64,000 nt of DNA from Bdellovibrionia bacterium (GTDB taxonomy: Bacteria > Bdellovibrionota > Bdellovibrionia > Bdellovibrionales > JAGQZY01): positions 310,001 to 374,000 of the forward strand of contig JAUICP010000002.1 in the NCBI GenBank assembly GCA_030427805.1. The letters run 5' to 3'. The stretch's first letter is position 1. Each line of letters opens with the position of its first letter. The translations under genes and the position numbers were made by a program. Below, piece by piece: positions 5,086-26,804 of this stretch. The notes beneath the pieces were generated by a model, which did not search any database, had not been told where the DNA came from, and saw nothing but the letters and a program-made list of their open reading frames with translations.

Positions 5086-5114
5086 AAACACATCCTTTTC
5101 AACACTCTTTCGAC

Positions 5115-7825: not shown

Positions 7826-8928
7826 TGGAAATCAAATTCACTGGCAATACGTGGAAGGTAGATTTGATTTAATGCATTCCTGATACTTACTTTATCATGT
7901 TTTGATATCTCCAAACAGGCCTGTGTCGATTTAAAAATACCCTCTCTAATATCTTTCCAAAGTTTTTCTCCATCTAATTGGTTACCAGAGCCCATTTGAC
8001 TACAAACCATCGCTGCACTTGAACTACTCGCAATTATGTCAGGAACTACGACTACTGACCTCTCAAAGAGTTGATCCCTAGCATCCAACTTCAATCCAAA
8101 ATTTGATCCTTCAACAATATAGTTCGCCTTAATATTTTTTGCGACCTGTCCATCGACAGTATTAGAGCCCGCCGCCAAAACTAAGACATCACAATCCGTG
8201 GAGAGAAGGTATTGACTTGACTCAATGTCACTACCCTCAAAACATTCAACATCGATTTTTCCGTTTTGAACCCCTTTTTCGACGCCTTCCCTCTTCAAAC
8301 CACTTCCATTTATAACGCAATTCTCAATATCACTCATGCCTACAACGGTGGCTCCACTTTCCAGAAACCTGAAAAAAGCCCCTCTGCCTACAGCCCCAGC
8401 ACCTTGAATAGCTACTCTTACTCCTTTAAGGTCTTCTCTGCCTAACGCAGCTAGAGTCGCATACATTACACCTAAAGCAGTCATATTTGGTAGGTACCCA
8501 TTTAATCCGTTTAGGAACTCTGGCAAGTCACTATTCGGAAACTTCTTCTGCACAGGAGTCAGCTGCCTAGATCCCAATCCCTTGTAAATCAATGCAATTC
8601 TATCGTTTGTCGCACCTAGATCTTTTCCTATCACTATTGAATTATCTAGAATCCCACGAGCACTTTGTCCAAACCGATACAGAATATCTTCAATATCCAG
8701 ACCTCCTGCATTAGCAATGACTCCTCCCTTTGAACCACCAATTGGCAGGCCATGAATAAACAGCTTCTTAGTCATTGTCTGAGCTAGCTCTTGCACCTCT
8801 TCTTGCCTGAGATCGTTCAATATACGACAACCGCCAAACGAAAGCCCGTTGCGAAAGGAGTCAACAACGATATATCCTAACAGCACTCCATCACTTTTGA
8901 TTTCTAATACTTTTTGCTTCTCGTACAC
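7801..8928 (-). CDS. Glu/Leu/Phe/Val dehydrogenase family protein
   Basis: A 375-residue NAD(P)-dependent amino-acid dehydrogenase. The N-terminal substrate domain carries LPIGGSKGGVIAN with the catalytic-type Lys and IGKDLGATND. The C-terminal Rossmann domain has VAIQGAGAVGRGAF near residue 185 and IVEGSNFG/IIASSSSAA near the end. Family members interconvert an amino acid and its 2-oxo acid with ammonia; glutamate or a branched-chain amino acid are both possible here. The start is GTG with GGGG upstream. It overlaps the exporter gene by 25 bases. Its neighbourhood (halogenase, methyltransferase) suggests a role in a dedicated pathway rather than central nitrogen metabolism. Confidence 0.8.
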   Translation of the reverse strand: MYEKQKVLEIKSDGVLLGYIVVDSFRNGLSFGGCRILNDLRQEEVQELAQTMTKKLFIHGLPIGGSKGGVIANAGGLDIEDILYRFGQSARGILDNSIVIGKDLGATNDRIALIYKGLGSRQLTPVQKKFPNSDLPEFLNGLNGYLPNMTALGVMYATLAALGREDLKGVRVAIQGAGAVGRGAFFRFLESGATVVGMSDIENCVINGSGLKREGVEKGVQNGKIDVECFEGSDIESSQYLLSTDCDVLVLAAGSNTVDGQVAKNIKANYIVEGSNFGLKLDARDQLFERSVVVVPDIIASSSSAAMVCSQMGSGNQLDGEKLWKDIREGIFKSTQACLEISKHDKVSIRNALNQIYLPRIASEFDFQWGAETQL

Positions 8929-9032: not shown

Positions 9033-9566
9033 CTACTTTTTGTTTTTAGCCTGAGATTCGATATAAGATCTTATTCGTTGTTCAAGCGGTAACAAAAATG
9101 CAAAGTAACTTGAGCTCTCAAAATCAGGGCTGTAAACGACTTTCTCGTGCTCGATGTCGGAAAACGACTGAACCGTAAAGCTACTGCCTAAATCAAAATC
9201 TGTCGCTATAGATATGAGGTGAAAGTGTTCATCCCCCGAACTCTCACTATAGTAGGGACAGTAGAAACTAGTCGCGAAATGCTTTTCACCAAAAAAGCCA
9301 TTAATCATGTTAAATTGATCCACGAGCCAAACAGGACTATTTACAAAATTTAGGGTTCTTTCACAGTCTCGGAGAACTTTAATTAGCTTTCTAACTCCCA
9401 CTGAATTAATATGCCCCACTCTTTCAAATGAGGTCGTAATGATATGGTCTTCACCCTTATCAAGACTCTCAATTGACTTTTTGAATTCCGCATTGAAAGT
9501 CTCAGCAGGAGGAATTTCAGTCAAATCACCAACGAAATAGAGAATATCATTTTCAATAGTAAACAT
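9033..9566 (-). CDS. STAS-like small protein
   Basis: A 177-residue cytosolic protein without a strong database-style signature that I can name. Residues 1 to 100 look like a STAS (anti-sigma factor antagonist) fold: a short beta start (FTIENDILYFVGDLT), a strand DHIITTSFERVGHINSVGVRKLIKVLRD with Ser before Val-Gly as in the phosphorylatable loop, then a strand NFVNSPVWLVDQF. The C-terminal half has no known domain. It sits 45 bases after a second STAS-like gene. If the reading is right, the Ser in HINSVG would be the site a kinase of the RsbW or Hanks type acts on. The call is from pattern only. Confidence 0.45.
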   Translation of the reverse strand: MFTIENDILYFVGDLTEIPPAETFNAEFKKSIESLDKGEDHIITTSFERVGHINSVGVRKLIKVLRDCERTLNFVNSPVWLVDQFNMINGFFGEKHFATSFYCPYYSESSGDEHFHLISIATDFDLGSSFTVQSFSDIEHEKVVYSPDFESSSYFAFLLPLEQRIRSYIESQAKNKK

Positions 9567-9611
9567 ATCAACTCACATTCAGCACATTCAATTTACACCA
9601 AAGTAATTCTA

Positions 9612-10061
9612 TCAACCTCGCCTCAATTGACTTATTATCACTTCAAAATAGCTTTCGGGGTTTACATCAATTTCCCAATCCGAAGCCCGTTCGTCGGTCG
9701 CATAATCAAATAGTAGGTTAAGATTTCCTGAGCCATCATCTTCAACGTCATTAATATTAATCAGTAATTCCTTTTCCTCCTGTAATTCCTCGGAGTACAA
9801 TGGAACTTTAAAAGATTCTATTTCGCAATTATCTGTGACTAGAGATGAAATCATTGCAACCTGACTTAAAAACTGTACCGACACGTTGATTAGGGAAATT
9901 TTTTTTGCACCACACTCATTAACCCATTTTATCCAAGCTGCAATGCCATTGGAATTCATATAGAGATGCTTAGAAAAATCTATAACGACCGATTTTTGCT
10001 CGTCATCCAAAATCGGAAAGGTAATAGACTCATTTATGGTTTGAGGAATTTGATATGGCAT
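9612..10061 (-). CDS. STAS-like small protein
   Basis: A 149-residue cytosolic protein. The segment VVIDFSKHLYMNSNGIAAWIKWVNE is a good match in shape to the STAS core (strand, loop with Asn-Ser, helix), followed by the strand ISLINVSVQFLSQ as in other anti-sigma antagonists. The C-terminal 50 residues are acidic (EELQEEKELL, DDGSGNLN). First gene of a probable unit with the next STAS-like gene. The ATG is preceded closely by GAGG. It is divergent from the aspartokinase gene across a 303-base gap. The function is inferred from fold shape and neighbours; the Ser in MNSNG would be the candidate phosphosite. Confidence 0.45.
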   Translation of the reverse strand: MPYQIPQTINESITFPILDDEQKSVVIDFSKHLYMNSNGIAAWIKWVNECGAKKISLINVSVQFLSQVAMISSLVTDNCEIESFKVPLYSEELQEEKELLININDVEDDGSGNLNLLFDYATDERASDWEIDVNPESYFEVIISQLRRG

Positions 10062-10364
10062 ACCTCTATCTTAGATCTCAAAGCTAATTTGGTACAGCGA
10101 TAAGGCCCATCTTAGACTAAGATTTAGTTAAATATTAACAAAACAGGAACCCCATTTTAACACCCCAAAACCTCTAGGACCCCTACCAAACGATAGTGAC
10201 AACGAATGTGCTTATCCTAACAAAAGTCTAATATCAATACACTAGCCAATCTAACTATTCTTAAAATGATCATTCAACTATGAGAAAGGGCAAAATTTTT
10301 ATGACTTTAACATGACTTTTATACTGATTATACCGTTATGTATTTTAAGAAGTGAGGTTGATCT
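10062..10364. other. 303-base divergent intergenic region between the STAS-like and aspartokinase genes
   Basis: AT-rich and without any credible gene. It holds a perfect 15-base palindrome, ATCTTAG-A-CTAAGAT, at 10109 to 10123. A related ATCTTAGA word lies 41 bases away at 10068 to 10075. Near the aspartokinase end is an imperfect tandem repeat with ATGACTTT at 10301 and again at 10312, next to a weak promoter-like pair. I see no terminator-antiterminator structure and no run of Thr, Ile or Met codons that would mark a leader-peptide attenuator. Confidence 0.6.
10307..10334 (+). promoter_or_regulatory. Candidate promoter of the aspartokinase/homoserine dehydrogenase gene
   Basis: TTAACA at 10307 to 10312 (five of six to TTGACA) and TATACC at 10329 to 10334 (four of six to TATAAT) are separated by 16 bases, which would start transcription near 10341, about 24 bases before the ATG at 10365. 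The -35 word lies inside two copies of ATGACTTT spaced 11 bases apart, which could be a binding site. Sequence match only. Confidence 0.35.
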
Positions 10365-12863
10365 ATGGCATATAAACATGTGCAAAAATTTGGCGGGTCA
10401 AGTCTAGGAAGCGCAGATAGAATTTCCAACCTAGTTGATCGACTTGACCTAAAACCTAAGGAACGATCGATAATCGTAGTTTCAGCATTTGCGAAAGTGA
10501 CTGACCTCTTGGAATCTTCTATTAGAGAGTCTTTAGATGGAAGAGATTTTGAAACCACATTGAGACAAGTATTAGAAATTCACAAAGATGTCGTAGAGAA
10601 ACTTTGCCCTAGCAATATAAGCTTAATTAAATCAATCGAGGACGATACCAATAGAATTAACCAGTTCCTAGGTGTAGCGAGGACCATAAACTTCACGAGT
10701 GATCCTCTCTATTCGTTTGTAATTGGTCACGGCGAAGAATGGTCTGGTCGAGTATTCAACGCCATTCTCAAAGAACGAGGAATCCAATCTAAATACTTGA
10801 ACGCTAGAGAATTCCTAATCCTTGAGGAATCCATGGACACTTCTCGAGTTAACTGGGAAGAAAGTAGAAAGAAGTTTGATAACCTAGTAGAATTTACCGA
10901 TTCCGATTACCTCGTGACGACTGGCTTTATCGCAATGAATTCAAGCTTAAGACCGACGACACTAGGAAGAAATGGAAGTGACTTTTCGGCTGCAATAATC
11001 GCGAACTTAGTAGATGCAAATAGTCTGTGTATTTGGACCGATGTCGATGGTATTTATAGTTCAGATCCCAGACTTGTTAAAGATGCCTTTAGGATTGAAA
11101 AATTGAGTTACGAAGAAGCACTTTGCATGGCTCACCTCGGAGCGAAGGTTATACACCCCAAAACGATGCTCCCCCTCAAAGACAAAGGCGTTCCCATTGA
11201 AATTAGGAGTGCACTGTCCAAAAATTCTAGTGGAACAAAAATTCATCTTGAAAGTCTTGGGCAATCTAGGGCTGCCTCAGTTTCGATTTTAAAAGAGCTC
11301 GTCGAGGTAACTTTTTCTTTGCGACCAGGTTTTAAAATTGAACTCCTTTTAGCAAATGTATTCGGGGCATGTCGTCGATTGCAGATTAGTACAAAAGCAA
11401 TAAGCCTCGACCCTGAGAAAAGTAGTTTAATTGCTGTTTTCGATAAAGATGAGTGGAAAAAATTTGATGATGAGCTGGGGGACAATTTCAACTTCCATCA
11501 GTCGGCAAAATCTATTTCAACCCGACATGGAGTTTGTCTTCTCAGTTTAGTTGGAAAAGACCTTCCAACTAGATACGAAACAGTCAGCAAGTTTATGCGC
11601 GAGTGTGAGTCGAGAGATTTACTTGTCCAGCCTTTCGACACGGACGGCTTACATAATTCTTTTCTTATCAACGAATCGGATTCTAACCAGTTAATAGCCT
11701 TACTTCATAGTCACCTCCCGAGTAATTCAAAAACTGTAGCTGTTGGGATTCTCGGGCCCGGCAATGTCGGATCAAATTTAATAAGAGATATTAATCGGAT
11801 CAAATCAGAGTTTCAGAATAGATTTGGGCAATCCATTTCAATTTTTTTGGTTTCGGATTCCAAAGAAATGCTTTTCAAAGATAATATCGATCTCTTAGAG
11901 TGGAGAGAAAAAAGAAAATCTGAAACTAAGCCAGCTGATATAAATGAGTTCCTGAGACTTATGAGCGACCTTCCATACGAACATAAGATTGTCTTTGACT
12001 GTACTGCATCAAGTACAATTGGTGACTTCTATCAAGACTTTATCAACAATGGGATTGCAATAATAACCGCAAATAAAAATCCCCTTGTCTCAAGTCACGC
12101 AAATCTAATTCAGGATAACTACAATACAGATATGCTCATGTACGAAGCTACTGTGGGAGCGGCTCTTCCAATTATTTCGACGATATCAAATTTAAGAGAC
12201 TCACTTGATGAAATTACCGCGATAGAAGGTGTTTTCTCTGGAAGCCTCTCTTTTATATTTAATAGTATCTTTGGACCTGATCGACTATCTGTTAGTGAAG
12301 CAGTCAAAAAAGCTATGGATAAGGGAATGACAGAGCCAGATCCTCGGGATGATCTTTCTGGTCATGATGTAGCTAGAAAGGTATTAATACTTGCAAGAAC
12401 CTTGGGCTATAACCTCCAAATGAGTGACGTTAATATTGAAGCTTTACTTACGAATCGACTTGCAGGTTTAAGCAAAGATGAATTTATCAATGCAATTCAT
12501 GAACTTGATCTGGAATTTGAAGGAATTATAAACAATGCGAGAAGTAATAAGCAAATTTTGAGTTTCGTAGGAAGTTTTTCAAATGAATCTGGTCTTAAAT
12601 GTGGTGTTAAAAGTGTTGATTCAAATCATATTTACAAACAACTTGATGGTCCGGATAACGTCTTTATCATCGAATCTAAACGCTTCAACTCTAACTCCTT
12701 ACTAATAAAAGGGCCCGGCGCAGGACCACATGTCACTTCTCAGGCCCTTATTTCAGATCTCTCTAGATGGGCTGAGAAGAAAATTGGATCCAAACTTCAA
12801 ATTGGAAAACAAATCAAAAAAATCTACCACAACTATCAGACTATAGAGAAGAAGGCAGCATAA
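10365..12863 (+). CDS. thrA: Bifunctional aspartokinase/homoserine dehydrogenase
   Basis: An 832-residue fusion that carries out the first and third steps from aspartate to homoserine. The aspartokinase comes first, with KFGGSSLGSADRI at the start and TTLGRNGSDFSA in the kinase core, followed by a regulatory region of about residues 310 to 450. The homoserine dehydrogenase follows from VAVGILGPGNVGSNLI, with NKNPL, the signature GVFSGSLSFIFN and DDLSGHDVARK. Length and order match ThrA/MetL enzymes (about 810 to 830). GAGGT precedes the ATG. It converges on a PLP enzyme gene that could use activated homoserine. It may be housekeeping or part of the local pathway. Confidence 0.9.
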   Translation: MAYKHVQKFGGSSLGSADRISNLVDRLDLKPKERSIIVVSAFAKVTDLLESSIRESLDGRDFETTLRQVLEIHKDVVEKLCPSNISLIKSIEDDTNRINQFLGVARTINFTSDPLYSFVIGHGEEWSGRVFNAILKERGIQSKYLNAREFLILEESMDTSRVNWEESRKKFDNLVEFTDSDYLVTTGFIAMNSSLRPTTLGRNGSDFSAAIIANLVDANSLCIWTDVDGIYSSDPRLVKDAFRIEKLSYEEALCMAHLGAKVIHPKTMLPLKDKGVPIEIRSALSKNSSGTKIHLESLGQSRAASVSILKELVEVTFSLRPGFKIELLLANVFGACRRLQISTKAISLDPEKSSLIAVFDKDEWKKFDDELGDNFNFHQSAKSISTRHGVCLLSLVGKDLPTRYETVSKFMRECESRDLLVQPFDTDGLHNSFLINESDSNQLIALLHSHLPSNSKTVAVGILGPGNVGSNLIRDINRIKSEFQNRFGQSISIFLVSDSKEMLFKDNIDLLEWREKRKSETKPADINEFLRLMSDLPYEHKIVFDCTASSTIGDFYQDFINNGIAIITANKNPLVSSHANLIQDNYNTDMLMYEATVGAALPIISTISNLRDSLDEITAIEGVFSGSLSFIFNSIFGPDRLSVSEAVKKAMDKGMTEPDPRDDLSGHDVARKVLILARTLGYNLQMSDVNIEALLTNRLAGLSKDEFINAIHELDLEFEGIINNARSNKQILSFVGSFSNESGLKCGVKSVDSNHIYKQLDGPDNVFIIESKRFNSNSLLIKGPGAGPHVTSQALISDLSRWAEKKIGSKLQIGKQIKKIYHNYQTIEKKAA

Positions 12864-12899
12864 CAAAACTAACCCAATTAGGAATGCAAAAGCTCCAGA

Positions 12900-14060
12900 T
12901 CAGATTGAGGCTAGTGCTCGGTCCAAATCCATAATAATGTCTTCAACATCCTCTATACCAACCGATAGACGACAGAGTGTGTCTGTCAGGCCTCGACGTA
13001 TACGGACTTCTTTAGGGACATCTAGATGAGTCATGGATGCGGGGTGAGTAATCATTGTTTCTGTACCACCTAAAGACTCAGCCAACATACAAAACTCGAG
13101 CTTATTGATGAACTCCTTTGTTTTCTCGAAACTAGTCTCTAGTTCGAAACTCAACATGCCACCATAGTTTTTCATTTGTTCTTTGGCAATACTGTGCTGC
13201 TCATGATTGGGCAGCCCCGGATAAATTACTCTCTTCACCATTTTACTTTCAGCCAAGAACTGTGCCACTTTCATTGCATTTTCGCAGTGTCTATCCATTC
13301 GAAGCTCAAGAGTCTTTACTCCTAAAAGAGTTAAGTAGCAATCAAAGGGGCTCTGTACTGCTCCAATTGATTTTTGGAAGAATTTCAGCCTTTTAAATAA
13401 CTCCTCTGAATTAGTCAGGACAGCGCCTCCAATGAGTTGATTATGCCCACTTATATATTTTGAAGTACTTTGAACCACCATATCTATTTGATATTCAATT
13501 GGCTTTAATAAGTAAGGAGTCGCAAATGTCGAGTCAACCACACTTATCAAGTCATTTGAGTTTGCAAAACTACTAATAAGATTTAGATCAATTACTTCGA
13601 GAAGCGGGTTTGAAGGCGTTTCAACCCATATCATTTTGGTATTCGACTTCAACGCTCGATCTAAACTAGATGCCGAAGAAACATCAACATAGTCAACCTC
13701 CACTCCAAATGAAGTGTAGCTTTGATCTAGGAGTCTAGTTACTCCACCATACAAGTCCTTAGAACAAATGATATGATCTCCTGCCTTTAACATCCTAAAG
13801 ACCGAGTCGCAGGCCGCCATTCCACTCGAATATGACACTCCATAATTCGAACCTTCAATTAAACTTAGATGTTCTTCAAGTCTGTGACGTGTTGGATTCG
13901 ATGACCTGGTATAATCAAATCCCTTGTCATTACCAATCGAATCTAACACATAGGTCGCTGTTTGATAAATAGCCGGGACTATCGATCCGGTCTGGGGGTC
14001 TGAATGAAAATTTCCACGTACAATTTGACTCGCATACTTCATTTCATATTTTTTATCCAT
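12900..14060 (-). CDS. metB: Cystathionine gamma-synthase/lyase family PLP enzyme
   Basis: A 386-residue Cys/Met-metabolism PLP enzyme. The cofactor Lys is in VVQSTSKYISGHNQLIGG. Other family marks are the N-terminal YTRSSNPTRHRLEEHL, YGVSYSSGMAA, WVETPSNPLLEV and the C-terminal MTHPASMTHLDVP plus RLSVGIEDVEDI. It may form cystathionine from activated homoserine and cysteine (MetB type) or cleave cystathionine or methionine (MetC/MGL type); sequence alone does not decide, so the symbol is provisional. AGAGGA lies 7 bases before the ATG. It faces the aspartokinase gene tail to tail across 36 bases and begins 36 bases after the giant kinase gene. Confidence 0.8.
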   Translation of the reverse strand: MDKKYEMKYASQIVRGNFHSDPQTGSIVPAIYQTATYVLDSIGNDKGFDYTRSSNPTRHRLEEHLSLIEGSNYGVSYSSGMAACDSVFRMLKAGDHIICSKDLYGGVTRLLDQSYTSFGVEVDYVDVSSASSLDRALKSNTKMIWVETPSNPLLEVIDLNLISSFANSNDLISVVDSTFATPYLLKPIEYQIDMVVQSTSKYISGHNQLIGGAVLTNSEELFKRLKFFQKSIGAVQSPFDCYLTLLGVKTLELRMDRHCENAMKVAQFLAESKMVKRVIYPGLPNHEQHSIAKEQMKNYGGMLSFELETSFEKTKEFINKLEFCMLAESLGGTETMITHPASMTHLDVPKEVRIRRGLTDTLCRLSVGIEDVEDIIMDLDRALASI

Positions 14061-14096
14061 TACTATTTCCTCTATTCAAATAGATACATGCACTTC

Positions 14097-17000
14097 TTAG
14101 GAACCGAAACTCACAAGAGCAATCGTGGTATCGTCGTCCGGAGGACACCCTTCTGTGACTCTTTTATATTCTTCGATTGTTTTTTCAAAGTACTTAGTAG
14201 TGTCCGTTTCTTCCTTGCACATTTTGTTAATAAAGCGACGAGCAGTTCTTATGCCATATTGATTCCCCTTTATAGTCGGTGCCTCATAGTAACCATCTGA
14301 AAAGAACAAAAGCTGGTCCCCTGGCTCGATTTTGTGCTCCACTCTTGAAAACTTAAATTCCCTCTGCCCCAAGGGAGAACCTGAAAGGAGCAACTCTATG
14401 ACACCTGACCCTTGCCTTAGTATCCATACGGGAGGCGAACCGGCGAACCAAATGGTAGCCACTTCGCTATTCGGCCGATACTCAATGATTTGAATAGTCA
14501 TCAAATACTGTCCTTTACATAGTTCCAGAAAAATTTTGTTAAATTCTTCTAATAAATTATCAACACTGGAACTCGACTTTTTTGCACTATTTATAAATGT
14601 TTTAAAAGCACCCGATGCCATTGCTGTCACCATGGCTGGACCTGGCCCATGCCCAGTCACATCACCATTGAGAAAGAGAATCCTACCATCATCTAACTTT
14701 TCCAACCACCACCAGTCCCCTCCAGAATAAGAAGCCGGCTCATAGTGGACCTCTACCAAAACTGAGTCGAGCTTAAATGTTCTCTCCTCAGGTAAGATCA
14801 AGTTTTGAACTGCCCCAGTTAACTCAAGGTCCTTTTCCAATTCTCGAGTCTTTATTTCCATTTCCGCAGTATCACGTAACTTGAAGAAAATCCCAATCTG
14901 TTGAGCCAGAACCCATAGGAGATTAGAATCCGAAGGACCATAAGCTTTTTTTTCTACAGAATTATCGAGGTAAATAGCTCCTACTAACCTGTTTTCGATA
15001 AGAATAGGAGTACCTATAATAGATACCAAATTATTAGCTACCGCACTAAATGCGCCAAGAAGCGCTCCCTCCTCTGTACCAGTTACAATTAGGGCCTCCT
15101 TCGAAGATCGTAGGTTCTTCAGAAAAGTTGAACTATAATTTTTAGCCTCATTGATATCTTCTTTTTTGTTTGTTCTTCCAATAAAGAATTCAAATTCATC
15201 TTTCTCTTCGTCAAAAAAGAAAATTAATCCTCTTTCGGACTGAAAAATTTCAATGGAACGATCTAACAGGGATCTTGATAACGGCTTCAGCTCAAAGGAC
15301 TGGGTAATCGCTTCTCCTACTTGAAGCAATGCTTTTATCGCCTTCTCACTGTACTCATTAGATGTGTTCGAAGAAGTTAAAACCGATTTTTGACCTTCTG
15401 ATACGAGCTCTGAATCAATCTGCTTTGCTAGCCATTTACACTCAATTCTTTCTAGAGAAATTACGGCATTACTTCTCAGAGAGTAGGATTCAACTTTATC
15501 TTCTTCAATTCGACCCAACTGATCTTGTAAGAGGGCAACTTCGATTACTCTTGATTGCCTATTATACTCGTCAATGGCTTGTTCAAAGTAGACTTTCGCC
15601 TGAGGAATATCTCCGTCCTTTAAAGACAAAAGACCTCTAATTTTATAAACATATCCCAGATCAGAATAATGTTGTTCACGACCTTCACATTGATCCAAAA
15701 AGTCGAAGTATTGTTTTTCGGAGCCCTCGTCAAGACCTGCCCACGCATTACCATTCACTAAATATGATTCCATAAGGCCTAAATAGGGGTAACTCAGGTA
15801 CGCCTTAAAAAACGAAGCCCCTGACTCAACAATTTTTACCGCGTCAGAAAAGCAGAGTGTAGAATCGAGATATTGTTTCTGAAGTAAGTGGCCTAGGCCT
15901 TTAGTTTTTAATACCTGGAAGAGATCGAACTTTAGGTTGTGCTTTTGAGTAAACTCTAGTGAAAACTCAATAGACTCCTCATATGCCTTGATATCACCAA
16001 GGAGCAAAAGAGCTTCAGCGATTTTACAACTTCCGCTCGCGATCATACCATTGGAGCCAGTTCTTTCACCTAACTGCCTTAATGTATAGGCATCTGAAAG
16101 TGCCTCGCGAAGTCGTCCTAATGCCCTATTGCTAAAATAGCTAAAGATCACTGCATTTCCTAGGTCCCACAAGTTTCCGATAGCAGTTAATGCCTCACGG
16201 GCGCTATCACTGTACTTTTTTGAATCCTTAAAGTTTCCTGTCCAGCTGTTGTATGCTGCAAGTCGGACTAAAGAACCCGCAACTATTTCATCCGCCCCTG
16301 CTTGACGTCCGACATCGATAGACTGATGGGCGTAGCCGAATGCCTTTTTCGCATCAGGAACTTCCAAATTCATTAAACTAAATGAAAGGTATTGATATGC
16401 AACAGCAAGGTGCTCGCTCACTCCCAACCACTGAGAAACTCTTAGAGTCCTATACGATATATGGAGTAGAGGTTTTATGTCGATAATGACATTGACCATC
16501 CATAGTTTTTTCAGTGAATCGGCAACAACTCTCAATCTTTCGAGTTTACGTTCAGAAGGTTTAAAAAATATCTTCATTAACGAATGTACCCTAATAAAGA
16601 AGCGATCTAATAACTCTTTCCGTTTCGGTTTTTCAAAGTCTATAGACCAACCAAGCTGACGAAGACCGGTCGCAAGGAGCTCTTGAGCCTCTTTATATTT
16701 TCCCTCTCGTTGTAAACATTCGGCAATTTTAGAATTAATCTCAACAGACTTTACTAAATCATCTCTATAGAGCTTTAAAACTTCATCCAAGGACTGTCGT
16801 GCCTCTTCATAATTTCCTAAAGAAACAAGTGCATCAGCTCTTCCAATGAACATTCGTCGTTGATTTTCAACACTACTTTCTACTATTCTATTCGAGCTAA
16901 TCGCGTGACCAAAATACTCTAAGGATTCGAAATTTGCGTGCCTCTCAAATGCACTTAGCCCTGCTTGAATACAATAATAGACAGTTCTCTTATGGTCGCC

Positions 17001-19148
17001 TGCACGAATTGCATGCTCAGCAGCTTCAAAGATTTTGTTTTTAGTGACTTCTGATCTCTCTAGGAAGTCTAAATAATCGAGATGAAATTTAACTCTCTCA
17101 TCTTCTTGCAACAGTTCTTGACAAGCTTCGTGGATTCTATCATGGAAAAATGCGAAGTTTGTTGAATTTCTCTTTTTTAATATTTGCTGGTCAACTGCCT
17201 TATCTATAATAGATACCAAGGATACTCCATCGATTTCACAGAGATCCTTTAGGTCCGAAAACTTAAAATCCAATCCAATTAAAGCCGCCCGCGCAATAAT
17301 GTCTACTTCTACGTCCTCTAATGTCTCCACTCGTTTGATAACGAGATCTACAATAGATCCTCCTAGCGAACTAAGGCCTGGGTGCTTTTTGTCGAAATTC
17401 AGATTATCTTCATTTTTGGTGATTATCGATTCTGACAAAAGAGCTTTTAGAAACTCCGACACAAACAGAGGATTTCCTTTCGTGCGGTCGTAAGTAATAT
17501 CTATAAGGTCTGTAGCTACTTTGTCTATTTCAACCCCTAAGCTCTGAGCGATAACTTCATGAACCTCTTCATATTCGAGCGGCTCGACCTCTATGCACTT
17601 ATCCTTACAATTTTCCCGATAGCGAGAAATAATTTGACCAAGACGATCGGTTGAAGAAACCTCCTCAGATCTGTAGCTCCCAACTAGTAACACATGAGTT
17701 TTGGATGGTGGGTTAAATACTAAACTTTCAATGAGATCTATTACAAGACCATCCGCCCACTGAAGATCATCTAGTAGAATAACGAGAGGAGCACTTTGAT
17801 GAGAAATAGTTTCTATTACCTTCATTACAAGTGATATAAATCGCTGCCTGTCCTTCTCGTAGCCTAGATATTGAACTTCAGGTATCTCTTCACTAGAAAA
17901 AACCTCATAAAAACTTGGAGCCAATCGAATGAGTTCTCCGGCTAGTCCCCCAACTTCTTTTCTTAGCTTGTTAAAAATTGGCTCCTTCAACTGTTGTGGC
18001 AACCTATTTAGTCTACCGTAAACATCTTCGAACGCTTCGCCAAGACTGTAAGCTGGAAGAGCTTTAGAAAATTCATAACTTTTACCGTAAGCAAATCGCG
18101 CACCAGCTACTGCAATCCTTGTTTCTAGTTCTCGAATCAAACTACTCTTTCCAATACCGGCTCGACCACCGACAAAAACCGCTTGAAATCCAGAAGTCTT
18201 GCAAGCATTAAAGCTATCTACCAGGGATTTCAACTCGCGCTTACGTCCAACAAAAGTCTTACCAATTTTCACAATTGTCTTTGAACCGCGGTCTAATTCT
18301 AAGTCAGAATTAAGGTCCCCTTGCCGAACAAGTTGCTGTACTTGCAAAAGGTCACTAAGAAGCGAGCTCGCTAACTGGTACCTTTCCTCTGGAACCTTGT
18401 TAAGGAGTTTTAAAATAATTCGGTCTAAAATTGCGGGACAATCCTCTCTCTGCTCCTGAATTCCTCGAGGAGTTTCTTCAATCAGCGATTGCATGCCCCT
18501 ACTCGCACTCAAGGGGAGCTTCGATGTCAGCATTTTGTAAAAAATGACTCCTATCGAATATAAGTCCGATCTTTCATCAATAGGATTCTTAATCAAGCCC
18601 AACTGCTCTGGTGCTGAATACTCTATGGTTCCAGCAAACCTTGAATCTTTACTTCCACCTTCATCAACCTCTAGTGCAAATCCCAGATCGATTATCTTAA
18701 CGCGATAATCTCCTTCCCCCCCAAGTATCATGATATTTTGATCTTTTAGGTCCCTATGCAGGTATCCGGCTTGATGAATATGGTCAAGTCCCTTGACTAT
18801 TTGTATTGCAATTTCAAAGAAATCACTCATTTCAATCTTCGATTCATTACAAATGTCTTCGAGATTCTTGCCTTCAACAAATTCTAATAGCATATAGTTG
18901 AGATCTTGATTTAACCCATACTCTAAGACTTTAACTATATGCTCGCTATTGAATGCCGAAAGGGCTTTAGCTTCCCTTACAAACTCAATATTACTCATTG
19001 AGTTTCTGTCTTTAGATTTAGACACCTTTAAGCAAAGTGGCTCTAATACTTCAGGTGATTTTACTCTGAAAACATCTGAAAGCTCGGTTTCGTGAATTTG
19101 CTTTTCTATCGTAAGTTGAGCATATCCATTTGATTGAAAGTCTTGCAT
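14097..19148 (-). CDS. Giant Ser/Thr kinase-AAA-TPR-GAF-SpoIIE-type phosphatase fusion
   Basis: A 1683-residue cytosolic signalling protein. The Hanks kinase spans about residues 10 to 270, with Lys41, HRDLKDQN at 131 to 138, D154 in a DLG instead of DFG, and an APE at 179 to 181. A predicted ATPase of the AAA/STAND type follows (GGRAGIGKSSL near 328, LVILLDDLQWAD near 460). Then come a long TPR-like helical region (about 700 to 1230), a GAF domain (about 1290 to 1440) and a C-terminal PP2C/SpoIIE-type phosphatase (GDWWWLEKLDDGRI, NGDVTGHGPGPAMVTAM, DQLLFFSDGYYEA, PPDDDTTIALVSF). Kinase and phosphatase in one chain imply self-contained control of a phosphoprotein such as a STAS partner. No membrane segment. 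Weak ribosome site. Confidence 0.9.
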   Translation of the reverse strand: MQDFQSNGYAQLTIEKQIHETELSDVFRVKSPEVLEPLCLKVSKSKDRNSMSNIEFVREAKALSAFNSEHIVKVLEYGLNQDLNYMLLEFVEGKNLEDICNESKIEMSDFFEIAIQIVKGLDHIHQAGYLHRDLKDQNIMILGGEGDYRVKIIDLGFALEVDEGGSKDSRFAGTIEYSAPEQLGLIKNPIDERSDLYSIGVIFYKMLTSKLPLSASRGMQSLIEETPRGIQEQREDCPAILDRIILKLLNKVPEERYQLASSLLSDLLQVQQLVRQGDLNSDLELDRGSKTIVKIGKTFVGRKRELKSLVDSFNACKTSGFQAVFVGGRAGIGKSSLIRELETRIAVAGARFAYGKSYEFSKALPAYSLGEAFEDVYGRLNRLPQQLKEPIFNKLRKEVGGLAGELIRLAPSFYEVFSSEEIPEVQYLGYEKDRQRFISLVMKVIETISHQSAPLVILLDDLQWADGLVIDLIESLVFNPPSKTHVLLVGSYRSEEVSSTDRLGQIISRYRENCKDKCIEVEPLEYEEVHEVIAQSLGVEIDKVATDLIDITYDRTKGNPLFVSEFLKALLSESIITKNEDNLNFDKKHPGLSSLGGSIVDLVIKRVETLEDVEVDIIARAALIGLDFKFSDLKDLCEIDGVSLVSIIDKAVDQQILKKRNSTNFAFFHDRIHEACQELLQEDERVKFHLDYLDFLERSEVTKNKIFEAAEHAIRAGDHKRTVYYCIQAGLSAFERHANFESLEYFGHAISSNRIVESSVENQRRMFIGRADALVSLGNYEEARQSLDEVLKLYRDDLVKSVEINSKIAECLQREGKYKEAQELLATGLRQLGWSIDFEKPKRKELLDRFFIRVHSLMKIFFKPSERKLERLRVVADSLKKLWMVNVIIDIKPLLHISYRTLRVSQWLGVSEHLAVAYQYLSFSLMNLEVPDAKKAFGYAHQSIDVGRQAGADEIVAGSLVRLAAYNSWTGNFKDSKKYSDSAREALTAIGNLWDLGNAVIFSYFSNRALGRLREALSDAYTLRQLGERTGSNGMIASGSCKIAEALLLLGDIKAYEESIEFSLEFTQKHNLKFDLFQVLKTKGLGHLLQKQYLDSTLCFSDAVKIVESGASFFKAYLSYPYLGLMESYLVNGNAWAGLDEGSEKQYFDFLDQCEGREQHYSDLGYVYKIRGLLSLKDGDIPQAKVYFEQAIDEYNRQSRVIEVALLQDQLGRIEEDKVESYSLRSNAVISLERIECKWLAKQIDSELVSEGQKSVLTSSNTSNEYSEKAIKALLQVGEAITQSFELKPLSRSLLDRSIEIFQSERGLIFFFDEEKDEFEFFIGRTNKKEDINEAKNYSSTFLKNLRSSKEALIVTGTEEGALLGAFSAVANNLVSIIGTPILIENRLVGAIYLDNSVEKKAYGPSDSNLLWVLAQQIGIFFKLRDTAEMEIKTRELEKDLELTGAVQNLILPEERTFKLDSVLVEVHYEPASYSGGDWWWLEKLDDGRILFLNGDVTGHGPGPAMVTAMASGAFKTFINSAKKSSSSVDNLLEEFNKIFLELCKGQYLMTIQIIEYRPNSEVATIWFAGSPPVWILRQGSGVIELLLSGSPLGQREFKFSRVEHKIEPGDQLLFFSDGYYEAPTIKGNQYGIRTARRFINKMCKEETDTTKYFEKTIEEYKRVTEGCPPDDDTTIALVSFGS

Positions 19149-19252
19149 TAAAAACCATTTTGTTAAATTCTGAGCTAAAACTAATTATATAGAATATTTG
19201 AAAAGTACTTAACAAAGAATTACTTCGTCTGAGAGTATTAAACAAAAGTAGA

Positions 19253-19288
19253 GAAAAAGCCTTTTAAAGAAGGGAAAAAGCCTTTTAA
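19253..19288 (-). repeat. Two 15-base direct repeats, each an AAAAG-C-CTTTT dyad, upstream of the giant kinase gene
   Basis: GAAAAAGCCTTTTAA occurs at 19253 to 19267 and again at 19274 to 19288, a period of 21 bases or two helical turns. Each copy contains an 11-base dyad with five-base arms. They lie 105 to 140 bases before the start of the minus-strand kinase gene and just past the terminator-like hairpin of the MAPEG gene. The arrangement fits a two-site operator for the kinase gene. This is inference from spacing. Confidence 0.45.
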
Positions 19289-19293
19289 GGAAT

Positions 19294-19319
19294 GCACTCA
19301 ACTGAAATCAGCTGAGTGC
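19294..19319 (-). terminator. Hairpin terminator after the MAPEG gene
   Basis: A 26-base inverted repeat: GCACTCA on one side and TGAGTGC on the other extend inward to a 12-pair stem with a single G-T (minus strand) mismatch and a two-base turn. It begins 8 bases past the MAPEG stop codon. On the minus strand the next bases include T-rich stretches inside the 21-base repeats rather than an immediate T run, so termination efficiency is uncertain. Confidence 0.6.
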
Positions 19320-19327
19320 AGAGAACA

Positions 19328-19714
19328 TCAAAGTGCCTGAAGAAGGATTGCTACCTGGCAGCCAAACCCCACCAAAAAGGCCAAAGTCCGTAGACCCGGC
19401 ACGCCTAAGATATAGACAATTAAGTGAACGAGACGTGCATAAAAGTAAATCATTGCCGCCATGGCCGTTATTTCGTTGGTCGTTTGCGAGATGACGACTA
19501 TAAGGATTGCTGCCGCAAATACGGGCAAATTTGCACTCGCGTTCGCGTGAGCCTTCATAGCCCTTTCTGCCCACGAATGTAATGGTTTTGGACTTTTAGG
19601 ATATCCAATCGTATCCATAATTCCACGTACGATGAATGAATCTAAGATATTGGGAATCCAAGCAAAGGCCGTCAAAAGTGATACCAATGCCAAGTATGTT
19701 AACTCCGTAGTCAT
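19328..19714 (-). CDS. MAPEG-family membrane protein
   Basis: A 128-residue integral membrane protein with four hydrophobic helices (LTYLALVSLLTAFAWI near the start, VFAAAILIVVIS, AMIYFYARLVHLIVYILG, LAFLVGFGCQVAILLQAL). The conserved ERAMKAHANASANLPVF and YFYARLVHLIVY are typical of MAPEG (membrane-associated eicosanoid and glutathione metabolism) proteins. Bacterial members are mostly uncharacterised; some have glutathione transferase or peroxidase activity. I place the start at ATG 19714 because GAGGT lies 5 bases before it; the longer form from 19738 lacks a ribosome site. It is followed by its own hairpin. A glutathione hydrolase gene lies upstream on the same strand. Confidence 0.8.
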   Translation of the reverse strand: MTTELTYLALVSLLTAFAWIPNILDSFIVRGIMDTIGYPKSPKPLHSWAERAMKAHANASANLPVFAAAILIVVISQTTNEITAMAAMIYFYARLVHLIVYILGVPGLRTLAFLVGFGCQVAILLQAL

Positions 19715-19888
19715 TTTAACCTCACTAATATGTTTCAATACTTATAGAATATTAGCGCTAAATCGAATGAATTATGCAAGAATCTATTTTAAACGGATTT
19801 TGCTTAGCACCCAAGTTTGGCCTTGAAAGCGCATTTGAAAGACTTCCTACTCTAAAGAACTAGATGGAAGTCGGTATATATACTTCTC

Positions 19889-20665
19889 TCATCCCTTGAA
19901 TGAATTCTTCATTCTTCGAATTTTTTCGAATACCTCGACTTCAGAGCCATTTGCCAGACCGATGTTATTTTTGATTTCAATAGAGTCGCAGCGAAGGAAT
20001 GGATTTGTCTTTAACTCCTCAGCAATGGTAGACGGAACGGTAGGTAAATTGTCAGCTCTCAGTCGCTCTGCCACCTCTAGTCGTTCGACTAAGTCTTGGT
20101 TACCTGGCTCTATTGATAGAGCGAAAGCTCCATTTTCTAAAGTATACTCGTGAGCACAATATAATTTAGTCTCAGGAGGTAAACCGGCAAGCTTTTGCAA
20201 ACTATTATACATAGTTTCGAAAGACCCTTCGAAAATCCGGCCGCATCCTATCGTAAAAAGTGCATCGCCACTAAAAACCGCGGGAATAGACTCAATATAG
20301 TATGCACAATGTGAGGATGTATGTCCTGGCACAGAAAGTAATTGTATCGGAGTTTCTCCCAACTCAAATACGTCGCCATCATCTAATTCAATCGCCTGAT
20401 AAGGAAAACGCTTATGCTCATCCTTTGGTCCAACAACCTTAAGTTCTGGAATCAATCTCGATAAAGGTGGGGTTCCATCAACGTGATCATAGTGATGATG
20501 CGTCTGTAGAATAAAATTGAGTTGCAGGTCTCTTTGATTCAAGACTTTCATAGTGGGTAACATCATTGAAGGGTCAACAACCGCAGTCATTCCTGTCGCC
20601 TCGTCACGAAGCAGATAATTGTAATTATCATTTAAAACAAGGTACTGAATTATCTCTAAACCCAT
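19889..20665 (-). CDS. gloB: Hydroxyacylglutathione hydrolase (glyoxalase II)
   Basis: A 258-residue metallo-beta-lactamase-fold hydrolase that splits S-lactoylglutathione to lactate and glutathione in methylglyoxal detoxification. Metal ligands are seen in QTHHHYDHVDG, the His of VPGHTSSHCAYY, the Asp of SGDALFTIGCGRIFEG and the His of LYCAHEYTLENGAFA. Length matches GloB (about 250). The C-terminal substrate domain is present (NPFLRCDS). AAGAAG precedes the ATG. It is divergent from a GHKL-domain gene and upstream of the MAPEG gene on the same strand with a 174-base gap. Confidence 0.9.
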   Translation of the reverse strand: MGLEIIQYLVLNDNYNYLLRDEATGMTAVVDPSMMLPTMKVLNQRDLQLNFILQTHHHYDHVDGTPPLSRLIPELKVVGPKDEHKRFPYQAIELDDGDVFELGETPIQLLSVPGHTSSHCAYYIESIPAVFSGDALFTIGCGRIFEGSFETMYNSLQKLAGLPPETKLYCAHEYTLENGAFALSIEPGNQDLVERLEVAERLRADNLPTVPSTIAEELKTNPFLRCDSIEIKNNIGLANGSEVEVFEKIRRMKNSFKG

Positions 20666-20884
20666 TTACTTCTTCTTTCAGAATACGACCGCACGATATC
20701 GAAGACTCTAAACTACCGGCATTTAGTGTTATTTACATTAAGATGCCACAGTTACAAATGAAGTACAAAACCAATAATCTGATTATCAAAGAAGCTCGTC
20801 TATGGCATTGCAAAAAAAAATCTAATTACTTTCGACTTCCTCTGTGAAATTATACTACAATTGAACTCAGAAAAAGGTATCACT

Positions 20885-21748
20885 ATGACTATTGGATTTA
20901 TTGGAGAAAGAAATCACATATCGGAATTATTGGAAACGATGTTTGATTTACATTTTTATGACGAATCTGCCTCAGACCTTGGTACTCATAGACTCTATAT
21001 CCGAAACCCAAAAAAAATGGATGCTGTACAAAAGTGGGAGATCCCAAAGAATTCGACTTTAATCAATATCTTTAAGGTGGGAAACTCTAAGGTAGATGAC
21101 TATTCTTTTGTTCTCGAGAACAATCAACAAAACAATTTTCTTGTTGAATACCCCGGAATGTCCGCGTCATTTCTGTTAAAAAAAATTGAATCAATACTTA
21201 TCGATTCTGAATTCGACATTGAAACAAATTCACAAGTTATTTTAGAAGAATTTCATGTCTCAAAGATAAGTGATAAAAACAAATGGTTAGTAGAGTTTAG
21301 AGAAAAGATTAACAAGAACTCGCCATCGAAAGACCGCGAATTTTCGAGAATGGTTACGACTCTTGTTGATGAATTAATTCTAAATGCTTTTATTCACGGG
21401 TACGGAATGGACCCCAAGGAGCCGTCTTTAGACGAAATTGGGCCTGTAAAAATTAAATGGATATTCGATAACATCAATTTTTCCCTTCTCGTCGAAGACC
21501 GAAGCGGTAAATTTGACACGGAGAAATTTTTATTTAAGCAAAGTATGTATAAGTCGGCCGAAGAGATTTCGAACAGCCAAACCGGAGGTCTCGGAATTCT
21601 TATGTGTATTAAATTTTGTGACCACATAGAAATAGTCAACAAAAAAGGTATAAGCACATCAACACAACTTTTCATCGATCTTAACAGGAACCTTTTTAGC
21701 AAAATGAGAAAATCGAGAAGCTCTTCTCTTTTGATACTTAATCAGTAG
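20885..21748 (+). CDS. GHKL ATPase-domain protein, paralogue A
   Basis: A 287-residue protein in two parts. Residues 1 to about 120 look like a degenerate receiver or Rossmann-like fold (MTIGFIGERNHISELLE) and include the IPKNSTLINIFKVG and FLVEYPGMSASFLL blocks shared with the paralogue at 22887. The C-terminal half is a Bergerat ATPase domain: N-box VDELILNAFIHGYG, G1 box VEDRSGKF and G2 TGGLGILMC are intact. No His-phosphoacceptor domain is seen, so it resembles an anti-sigma-type kinase (RsbW/SpoIIAB) rather than a sensor kinase. ATG 20885 is preferred over TTG 20861, since a TATACT -10 word sits at 20851 to 20856. Function unknown. Confidence 0.6.
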   Translation: MTIGFIGERNHISELLETMFDLHFYDESASDLGTHRLYIRNPKKMDAVQKWEIPKNSTLINIFKVGNSKVDDYSFVLENNQQNNFLVEYPGMSASFLLKKIESILIDSEFDIETNSQVILEEFHVSKISDKNKWLVEFREKINKNSPSKDREFSRMVTTLVDELILNAFIHGYGMDPKEPSLDEIGPVKIKWIFDNINFSLLVEDRSGKFDTEKFLFKQSMYKSAEEISNSQTGGLGILMCIKFCDHIEIVNKKGISTSTQLFIDLNRNLFSKMRKSRSSSLLILNQ

Positions 21749-21915
21749 AATTAAAACTGACTCAATTTAGGTCAATTCTAAGATAGATGAGATCTTTATC
21801 AATTGCCAGACAACCAATGTTTCAAATTATGACATTTTTTCACACTGTTAAGCAATTTCCACATAATTATTAGTAAGATACCTTTTTTTTAGCCCACAAA
21901 TTCCGTTAAGAAGTA

Positions 21916-22785
21916 ATGCCTTCTAATTGTACTTTATTTAAAATAGATGAACTCGAGTCTAAGATAATACCTGTTTCGGATGAAACTCTCGATCGGCTTA
22001 GAATTGACGCTGTTGTTTGCCTAGATCAAGTATACGAACGAGATTTCAAAAACCTTCTCTTTGAATTAAAAGAAATGAAGGTAGGACATACTTGGAAAAA
22101 ATACCCAATTCTGGATATTGGAAACTATTATAACATTCAAACCCAGGAGAATAAAAAGCGCGACACTAAGTTCTTTTTTTACTATGCTATAAAAAATGGA
22201 GAGCCAGACTTTCTCGGTACAGCAACTGTCGCGTCAAAAATCAATCACGACTTCAAACATGATGGTTTTCCAGTAATCAGTCGCTGTTTCATTTTAAAGA
22301 AATACAGAGAAAACCGTTTCTACGCGCCTATCTTGAAACACCGAATTAAATTCTGCGAAGACACTTTTGGTAAAGAACTCAAAGCTATTCATATGGGCAC
22401 TTCGAACATTAGAGTCTTAAAAGCAACATTGAATGACAGCCTTCTTGATTTTAAGTTTATTGGTTGTGAAAATCTCGACTGTGGTTCCTATAAAGAACTC
22501 GTCTACGATTTTTTGAAATTTTCTCCTGATTATTTAGAACAACTACTTTCAACTACTATGAAGATCGATAGTCGGTTACATGATTTCATTTCGCAGATTG
22601 TGAATTTAGAGTTCTCATCAAACAAGTTTTTAAACTTTAAGGCATTAGTTGACGAAGCCAAAGGGGACAGTCCTATCATAGGTGAGTTTGCAGATTTGAT
22701 TGAAGCCATTGGAGTCATTCAAAGTGATGAAGTTTCAAGTGACAAACTTTTAGCCAAAGTAAAGTTCGACAGCCGAGCGAGCTAG
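21916..22785 (+). CDS. GNAT-like protein of unknown function
   Basis: A 289-residue cytosolic protein. The middle (about residues 85 to 180) looks like an acyl-CoA N-acyltransferase fold. FFFYYAIKNGEPDFLGTATV resembles the beta strands before the acetyl-CoA site, and SRCFILKKYRENRFYAPIL resembles the R/Q-x-x-G/A loop, though the canonical Gly residues are missing. HMGTSNIRVLKATLND follows as a late strand/helix. The last 90 residues are helical. It sits between two paralogous GHKL ATPase genes on the same strand, with gaps of 167 and 101 bases, which suggests a working link. I do not recognise a specific family. Confidence 0.45.
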   Translation: MPSNCTLFKIDELESKIIPVSDETLDRLRIDAVVCLDQVYERDFKNLLFELKEMKVGHTWKKYPILDIGNYYNIQTQENKKRDTKFFFYYAIKNGEPDFLGTATVASKINHDFKHDGFPVISRCFILKKYRENRFYAPILKHRIKFCEDTFGKELKAIHMGTSNIRVLKATLNDSLLDFKFIGCENLDCGSYKELVYDFLKFSPDYLEQLLSTTMKIDSRLHDFISQIVNLEFSSNKFLNFKALVDEAKGDSPIIGEFADLIEAIGVIQSDEVSSDKLLAKVKFDSRAS

Positions 22786-22886
22786 TTTCGATTGAGCACA
22801 TTTCTCGCCTTTGGGTCAGTATCGGTAAAGTTATTATCAATTCCGAGTTATAAAGAATAAAATAGCTCTGAGGAGATTCACAAATA

Positions 22887-23783
22887 ATGAAAATTGCAAT
22901 AGTTGGCGAGCCCACCTTAAATCTCGATACTCTCAAATCGTCGTATAAAGTCGAAAATATAGATGCCAATGAGCTACAAAAAAATATCGAGAAATTCAAT
23001 CTGATTATTTTGAGCACAAAAATTTGGGATACGGTTCCTGTATTAGACATTCCAAAGAACTGTACTCTCCTCAATCATTTTATAGTCGGTCAGGACTCGA
23101 TAGAAAAATTCAATTCAGTTAATGATAAACCTGATCAATTGAATTTTCTAGTAGAGTTTCCCGGTATGAGAACGAGATACCTAGAAGAAGCGCTTGAGGC
23201 TGCTTTACTTCAACAGCCTTTTAAACCAAATAGTCTTGATTCTACAAATCAGTTTTTTGATATTACTTTAATCAACAAAATCACTGCTAAAGCACGATGG
23301 CTAAATAACTTCCAAGAAGAAATTACAAAGCGAATACTTACCGACAATGTCACGTTTTTTAAGGGTATCACTACTATATTAGACGAGTTAGTAATGAACT
23401 CATTTGTTCATGGTTACAAGACCGATCTTGAAGATCCAAAAGGAAGCCCCAGTGGTAAAGTCATTGTACGATGGGGACTCGATCAACACAATATTGTGAT
23501 AAAGGTTTCTGATTTTGCAGGAACATTCAACTTCTTAAGTTTTCTGAAGACTCTTAAATCAAGTCGGTCAGCCGATGAAGTGGTTGGAGAAAATCCTGGA
23601 GGGCTTGGCTTATTAATGATGATAAACTTTGTTGACCACATAGAAATATCGTCTATCAAGGGTACTCAGACTATTGTTAAGTTATTTATCGATCTCGATC
23701 GTGTATTGTTAGCGAGAAGGCGGCGACCTCAAAAAGGATCGATTTTGTTAAAAAGTACTCCGTTGGTCGACGATTTCGACTAA
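22887..23783 (+). CDS. GHKL ATPase-domain protein, paralogue B
   Basis: A 298-residue protein with the same two-part plan as the protein at 20885. The N-terminus MKIAIVGEPTLNLD resembles a receiver or nucleotide-binding start, then come DIPKNCTLLNHFIVGQ and FLVEFPGMRTRYLEE, shared with the paralogue. The Bergerat domain has N-box LDELVMNSFVHGYK, G1 box VSDFAGTF and G2 PGGLGLLMM, all intact. It ends in a basic tail (ARRRRPQKGS). GAGGAG is about 11 bases before the ATG. Together with the neighbour genes it may be an anti-sigma-type kinase pair acting on STAS proteins; partner not known. It converges on a small secreted protein gene with a 10-base gap. Confidence 0.6.
   Translation: MKIAIVGEPTLNLDTLKSSYKVENIDANELQKNIEKFNLIILSTKIWDTVPVLDIPKNCTLLNHFIVGQDSIEKFNSVNDKPDQLNFLVEFPGMRTRYLEEALEAALLQQPFKPNSLDSTNQFFDITLINKITAKARWLNNFQEEITKRILTDNVTFFKGITTILDELVMNSFVHGYKTDLEDPKGSPSGKVIVRWGLDQHNIVIKVSDFAGTFNFLSFLKTLKSSRSADEVVGENPGGLGLLMMINFVDHIEISSIKGTQTIVKLFIDLDRVLLARRRRPQKGSILLKSTPLVDDFD

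Positions 23784-24100: not shown

Positions 24101-26804
<2,704 letters not shown>

Follow-up and report, generated by a model that had tools for sequence, protein, structure and literature searches.

Signaling genes of the locus

The stretch of DNA analyzed here, hereafter the window, comprises 64,000 nucleotides (G000:C1:310001-374000) of the 4.5-Mb draft genome of a Bdellovibrionia bacterium, and it carries a set of genes that an earlier note on this DNA had proposed to form a partner-switching circuit. In the well-known switches of Bacillus subtilis, RsbU/RsbV/RsbW and SpoIIE/SpoIIAA/SpoIIAB, a GHKL Ser kinase, a STAS antagonist, and a SpoIIE-type phosphatase act together. Two STAS-like proteins, a kinase/phosphatase fusion, and two GHKL proteins are indeed encoded within 15 kb of the window: every open reading frame (ORF) that the note had named is present where it had been placed. 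The note had overlooked an orphan gene between the two GHKL genes and the pseudo-receiver domains described below. In what follows, G000 denotes the genome of the bacterium itself, G001 that of a congener, and G062 that of a member of another family. The signaling genes and the orphan are as follows.

9033..9566, minus strand: STAS2, a STAS-like protein with a C-terminal extension and a candidate phospho-Ser in HINSVG (profile, alignment)
9612..10061, minus strand: STAS1, a STAS-like antagonist with a candidate phospho-Ser in MNSNG (Pfam STAS, family profile, N-S-x-G)
14097..19148, minus strand: the fusion, Hanks kinase - AAA_16/STAND - TPR - GAF - SpoIIE phosphatase (Pfam, motifs)
20885..21748, plus strand: GHKL1, a pseudo-receiver plus an RsbW/SpoIIAB-type GHKL domain (HATPase_c_2, RsbW model)
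21916..22785, plus strand: the orphan protein between the GHKL genes, a candidate direct target (homologs in the fusion-bearing genomes and in genome G248)
22887..23783, plus strand: GHKL2, a pseudo-receiver plus an RsbW/SpoIIAB-type GHKL domain (HATPase_c_2, weak RsbW structure match)

The fusion is a chain of 1683 amino acids (aa) in which Pfam recognized Pkinase (3.5e-43), AAA_16 (4.5e-23), and SpoIIE (1.8e-29; for PF07228, 103.5 bits versus a cut-off of 25) as well as TPR and GAF_2. The kinase motifs (VAIK-type Lys, HRDLKxxN, DLG, and APE), the Walker A and B motifs of the AAA part, and the metal motifs of the SpoIIE part (GDVTGHG, SDG, and DDD) are all intact, and on this basis both the kinase and the phosphatase end are predicted to be active. 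The joining of a kinase and a phosphatase in one chain, which had been proposed as part of a new layout, is real, but a kinase-AAA-GAF-SpoIIE chain also occurs in two further relatives, G096 (locus L053) and G085 (locus L054), so that the fusion is not unique. These two proteins share its domain order over about 1700 aa but are only 19-36% identical to it per region (41% in one linker), and the GHKL family of the module was not found in the G096 or G085 genomes.

STAS2 starts 45 bp past STAS1. Pfam matched STAS1 to its STAS family at a sub-threshold E of 0.004, and only 2 of 14 members of the STAS-like family have any match to Pfam STAS (best E 0.004). A profile made from these 14 members, all from the phylum, was run against 177,635 PDB sequences; its top four matches were all STAS proteins (E 0.0019-0.0043), among them the anti-sigma antagonist TM1442 (0.0019) and MlaB-type STAS proteins (0.0034-0.0043). 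The N-S-x-G motif of the family aligned in this search with the D-S-A-G phosphorylation motif of TM1442, and its Ser was invariant in all 14 aligned members, placing a phosphorylatable residue at the DSxG position. Judged by these profiles, STAS1 and STAS2 are likely, though not proven, to be STAS proteins.

For GHKL1, we preferred the ATG start at 20885 over a TTG at 20861. Both GHKL proteins passed the curated cut-off of 27.4 bits for HATPase_c_2 (PF13581), with 31.2 bits for GHKL1 and 35.3 bits for GHKL2, and both matched NCBIfam RsbW/SpoIIAB models with scores under those models' own cut-offs. Alignment showed that the Glu and Asn of the N-box, the DxxG box, and the GLG box are all conserved; residues E167, N171, D209, G212, G239, L240, and G241 (numbered as in GHKL2) do not vary across GHKL1, GHKL2, and relatives. 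The STAS and RsbW-type identities that had been proposed are thus supported by profile, Pfam, and alignment evidence, and the catalytic motifs are intact.

The two proteins had also been described as lacking a phosphoacceptor domain, which is correct for the residue but not for the domain. An AlphaFold model of GHKL2 (pLDDT 49 overall, best in residues 1-60) displayed five alternating strands and helices, (beta-alpha)5, followed by a GHKL layout, and residues 1-111 of this low-confidence model aligned with numerous receiver domains, at Z 9-10 and an rmsd of about 3. As modeled, the GHKL proteins carry an N-terminal receiver-like domain. Where strand 3 ends, the phosphoacceptor Asp is missing: GHKL2 has Ser at this position, whereas GHKL1 and the G062 protein have Asn, and we hence refer to these N-termini as pseudo-receivers. 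A Foldseek search with the whole GHKL2 model gave as best match LvrC (PDB 9qih; E 2.1e-5), at a low TM-score (0.26) with a poor model. A sequence search of the PDB with the GHKL proteins did not find LvrC, which was matched by fold alone.

The orphan had no Pfam match, and a PDB profile search with it gave nothing significant. A GNAT-like identity, read by eye from an alignment, was confirmed by neither search, and the AlphaFold model of the protein was unusable (pLDDT 33).

Conservation of the module and its neighborhood

We surveyed co-occurrence in 99 genomes, G000 included, and then in 369 genomes of the phylum (Bdellovibrionota). In the first survey, the GHKL protein occurred in three genomes (G000, G001, and G062), and the same three were the only ones with STAS2 at at least 51% identity and with the fusion at at least 67% identity; the orphan at at least 44% identity was confined to them as well, besides a marginal match in G094. 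Across the 369 genomes, the GHKL family was again found in these three, close orthologs of the fusion (E below 1e-100) in four (G271 in addition), and the orphan in five (G271 and G248 in addition). The fusion orthologs are 95% (G001), 67% (G062), and 37% (G271) identical to ours. Accordingly, the co-occurrence that the earlier note had named as a check on its proposal was found, the switch kinase, the antagonist, and the phosphatase being co-inherited in one locus in G000, G001, and G062. The orphan is the most constant companion of the module and, because it is present in every genome with the module, the best linked candidate for a target of the switch.

The G062 locus, which spans less than 12 kb, reads orphan, GHKL / glyoxalase II, MAPEG, fusion / STAS1, STAS2, which is the order of the window read from the opposite end. 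Its STAS1 and STAS2 are 52% and 51% identical to the copies in the window. A single GHKL gene is present, broken by masked bases in the record, and the arrangement of two switch kinases with two antagonists, suggested earlier as a new layout, is therefore not conserved. The G271 contig stops at the start of the fusion gene and tells nothing about GHKL or STAS genes beside it. In G248, the orphan homolog sits between an ELFV dehydrogenase gene and a STAS gene, and the latter shares 4 bp with a gene whose product has GHKL-like motifs. Comparison of this last product with the module GHKL proteins gave an unconvincing BLAST result (E 0.032) and a weak profile match (probability 16.5%), and Pfam gave no match; it is GHKL-like by motif only. 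Between G000 and G001, dN/dS was about 0.03-0.035 for STAS1, STAS2, the fusion, and the orphan and 0.10-0.11 for GHKL1 and GHKL2; given these values, the module genes are all maintained under purifying selection.

Around and between the signaling genes lie genes of biosynthetic type and other neighbors, including the following.

4054..5091, minus strand: methyltransferase, probable pathway gene (41% identical homolog adjoining a STAS gene on G271 contig C138)
5115..6839, minus strand: FAD-dependent enzyme weakly related to CmlS halogenase, probable pathway gene (NCBIfam CmlS E 5.2e-16, under cut-off)
6932..7825, minus strand: EamA-family exporter, overlapping the dehydrogenase gene (44% identical in G062)
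7801..8928, minus strand: Glu/Leu/Phe/Val (ELFV)-dehydrogenase family enzyme, next after STAS2 on the same strand (53% identical in G062)
10365..12863, plus strand: aspartokinase-homoserine dehydrogenase (inside the locus in G000 and G001, absent from the G062 locus)
12900..14060, minus strand: cystathionine gamma-synthase/lyase-type PLP enzyme (without a conserved counterpart at the G062 locus)
19328..19714, minus strand: MAPEG-family membrane protein, conserved neighbor (75% identical in G062)
19889..20665, minus strand: hydroxyacylglutathione hydrolase-like protein (glyoxalase II), conserved neighbor (59% identical in G062)

From 10 kb down to 1 kb, the minus strand reads STAS1, STAS2, ELFV dehydrogenase, EamA exporter, CmlS-like FAD enzyme, and methyltransferase, followed by a gluconate-dehydrogenase-like subunit, a GMC oxidoreductase, and a small protein bearing the cytochrome motif CxxCH. 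The STAS pair lies directly upstream of biosynthetic genes on the same strand in both families (G000 and G062), and in G062 it leads on one strand into a sulfotransferase gene, HTTM-like genes, and PanE. Homologs of four biosynthetic-type genes stand near the module in G062 (KAS III at 35%, EamA at 44%, ELFV dehydrogenase at 53%, and PanE at 34% identity), and this conservation supports the proposed link of the circuit to the biosynthetic region. The aspartokinase-homoserine dehydrogenase and the cystathionine-type enzyme are outside the conserved module. In G271, a Trp-halogenase-family gene and a TauD gene (35% identical to our own TauD) accompany the fusion and the orphan. Promoter-like sites were not more frequent than in shuffled sequences and terminator-like sites were within one standard deviation of shuffles, so that the limits of the gene runs rest on spacing.

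A candidate partner switch and its alternatives

Our preferred reading, which we hold to be somewhat more probable than not, is that the locus encodes a partner-switching module dedicated to the small biosynthetic gene cluster in which it lies. By analogy, the module most likely works along the lines of RsbU-RsbV-RsbW. An input would be sensed via the AAA/TPR/GAF part of the fusion, whose SpoIIE domain would dephosphorylate STAS1 and STAS2, while the Hanks kinase domain may autoregulate the fusion or act on the same partners. The GHKL proteins, as RsbW-type Ser kinases with a receiver that is not phosphorylatable at the usual place, would phosphorylate the STAS Ser. Free GHKL proteins would hold a target protein, dephosphorylated STAS would bind GHKL and release that target, and the released target would activate the neighboring genes for biosynthesis and export, or the enzymes that these encode. 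Among linked genes, the candidate for this target is the orphan encoded with the GHKL genes; an unlinked sigma factor is a possible alternative. We infer each of the phosphotransfer and binding steps, as well as the direction of the switch, its target, and its product.

Several points weigh against this reading. The STAS assignment relies on weak profile scores, STAS2 searched by itself against Pfam giving no match, and the overall confidence of the GHKL2 model is low. The STAS-like family is widespread in the order with other partners, and STAS1 and STAS2 may for that reason respond to further kinases as well. No member of the GHKL family was found in G271, although the contig there breaks off where the fusion gene starts. 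Lastly, the output of the switch is a guess, because no sigma factor was present among the genes scanned (window 1-26.8 kb and the upstream run at C1:302.8-307.9 kb).

A different reading, with perhaps a one-in-four claim on the evidence, takes the partner switch to be real but to act on an unlinked sigma factor or another global target, the biosynthetic genes being neighbors by shared mobility rather than a regulon. RsbW-type GHKL proteins classically bind sigma factors, as in B. subtilis, and the same has been proposed for LvrC (PMC13269768); the module has a sparse, patchy distribution in the phylum, the pattern expected of a mobile island, and G000 and G062 differ in many of their pathway genes. 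Shared mobility fits less well with the recurrence of the ELFV dehydrogenase, EamA, KAS III, and PanE genes beside the module in two families, with the TauD and halogenase-family genes near module genes in G271, and with the direct continuation of the STAS pair into biosynthetic genes on one strand. We consider it unlikely, though more likely than outright chance, that the locus holds two separate circuits, in one of which the SpoIIE fusion would work with the STAS pair, while in the other the GHKL proteins would act with the orphan as TciR-like binding regulators without STAS phosphorylation. TciR sets a precedent for such a separation, with Vogesella indigofera lacking RsbV, and at two loci elsewhere in the order (L066 and L061) STAS-like genes stand beside HAMP-SpoIIE phosphatases without an adjoining RsbW-type gene. 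In the window, the GHKL genes belong to one gene run and the STAS genes to another on the opposite strand, and the dN/dS of the GHKL genes is about three times that of STAS, the fusion, and the orphan (about 0.03). Yet every genome of the phylum sample that has the GHKL family also has the fusion and close STAS orthologs, and the overlap between a STAS gene and a GHKL-like gene in G248 also speaks against two circuits. That unrelated signaling genes were assembled by chance is extremely improbable. G000 is rich in such genes (10 HATPase_c_2-type matches, 5 SpoIIE domains, and 7 STAS-like matches), but the conserved gene set already contradicts chance assembly, as the same set is found in one locus in another family at 34-67% identity and the GHKL family is otherwise absent from the phylum sample.

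Within the preferred reading of a dedicated module, a more specific version is tentative at best: that the output is the linked orphan, possibly GNAT-like, rather than a sigma factor, that the pseudo-receiver RsbW-type kinases and the Hanks-kinase/SpoIIE fusion serve as input, and that the whole acts post-translationally as the private control of a single natural-product pathway of Bdellovibrionota.

Related systems and other occurrences

To our knowledge, the receiver-RsbW proteins LvrC and TciR were characterized only very recently, and their targets are not yet known. LvrC (LIC11110) of Leptospira interrogans is a receiver plus RsbW-like anti-sigma protein, whose canonical receiver is phosphorylated on D53 by LvrB; STAS is not mentioned in the LvrC paper (PMC13269768). 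Our GHKL proteins resemble it in having an N-terminal receiver and a C-terminal RsbW/SpoIIAB-like Bergerat domain in about 295 aa and differ in the Asn or Ser at the phosphoacceptor position. The same architecture is seen in TciR of V. indigofera, which controls the pigment indigoidine and thus a natural product, has a cognate histidine kinase, TciK, and functions in an organism without RsbV (PMC12826045). Unlike TciR, the module has linked STAS antagonists and a SpoIIE phosphatase, and its receivers lack the Asp. In Vibrio fischeri, as described in PMC12826045, the STAS protein SypA is set by opposing RsbW-type kinase and PP2C activities of SypE; a receiver domain takes part, and no sigma factor has been identified as the output. 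SypE, on that description, unites switch kinase, receiver, and phosphatase in one protein, whereas the switch kinases of the module are separate and its phosphatase shares a chain with a Hanks kinase and AAA/TPR/GAF. Compared with the B. subtilis switches, the same three classes of protein are present, but the module has no linked sigma factor in the scanned genes, a STAS motif of NSxG rather than DSxG, pseudo-receivers, and a Hanks kinase in the phosphatase chain.

Already known, then, are proteins of the receiver-RsbW type and the pairing of a switch kinase with an opposing phosphatase (SypE). New, within the literature we searched, are the pseudo-receiver form, the linkage of a receiver-RsbW protein with STAS antagonists and a Hanks/SpoIIE fusion, and the constant association with one orphan family and with biosynthetic genes; the search returned no paper combining Bdellovibrio, SpoIIE, and STAS. 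A single conserved neighborhood here joins pseudo-receiver RsbW, STAS antagonists, SpoIIE phosphatase, and Hanks kinase to a candidate target, and because the parts share that neighborhood, the whole signaling chain is approachable with a handful of proteins. The locus also suggests regulated specialized metabolism in the phylum. Bdellovibrionota are known mainly for predation.

Further genes were observed beside these subjects. Upstream of the window, one run (L067:2819-9032, G000:C1:302819-309032) encodes an AMP-ligase, KAS III, a class II aldolase, a TauD oxygenase, a PanE-type reductase, and a dipeptidase-like protein, and it looks like a further part of the small biosynthetic cluster. The G271 Trp-halogenase-family gene beside the fusion and the orphan encodes a CmlS-like FAD enzyme (L069:2748-4445, Pfam E 1.5e-37). 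Another G271 contig, C138 (L083:1-5565), carries isopropylmalate/homocitrate-synthase-like, aconitase-like, and TauD-like genes and the methyltransferase gene homologous to window 4054-5091, adjoining a STAS-like gene. We did not count this proximity as evidence for the module, because that STAS gene lies near a PAS-Hpt-HATPase kinase, as generic family members do. Genes for HTTM-like membrane proteins between the fusion and STAS genes of G062 (L038:17549-18972 and L039:1247-3541) occupy the place of the aspartokinase and cystathionine-type genes of the window, and in G062 a sulfotransferase gene and more HTTM-like genes follow STAS2.

The STAS-like family, although scarcely recognized by Pfam, is common in the order, with 64 of the 99 genomes matching STAS2. 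Copies elsewhere (L061:143-607, L084:4453-4911, L055:4261-4737, L056:3959-4441, L066:3607-4077, and L063:3502-3978) lie near HAMP-SpoIIE phosphatases, PAS-Hpt-HATPase kinases, or, in L084 and as read by eye, an ECF-sigma-like gene. The window itself encodes, outside the conserved module, a further HATPase_c protein of 472 aa (25386-26804, E 2.4e-11), whose gene adjoins those for an enolase and a CpaF-like ATPase.

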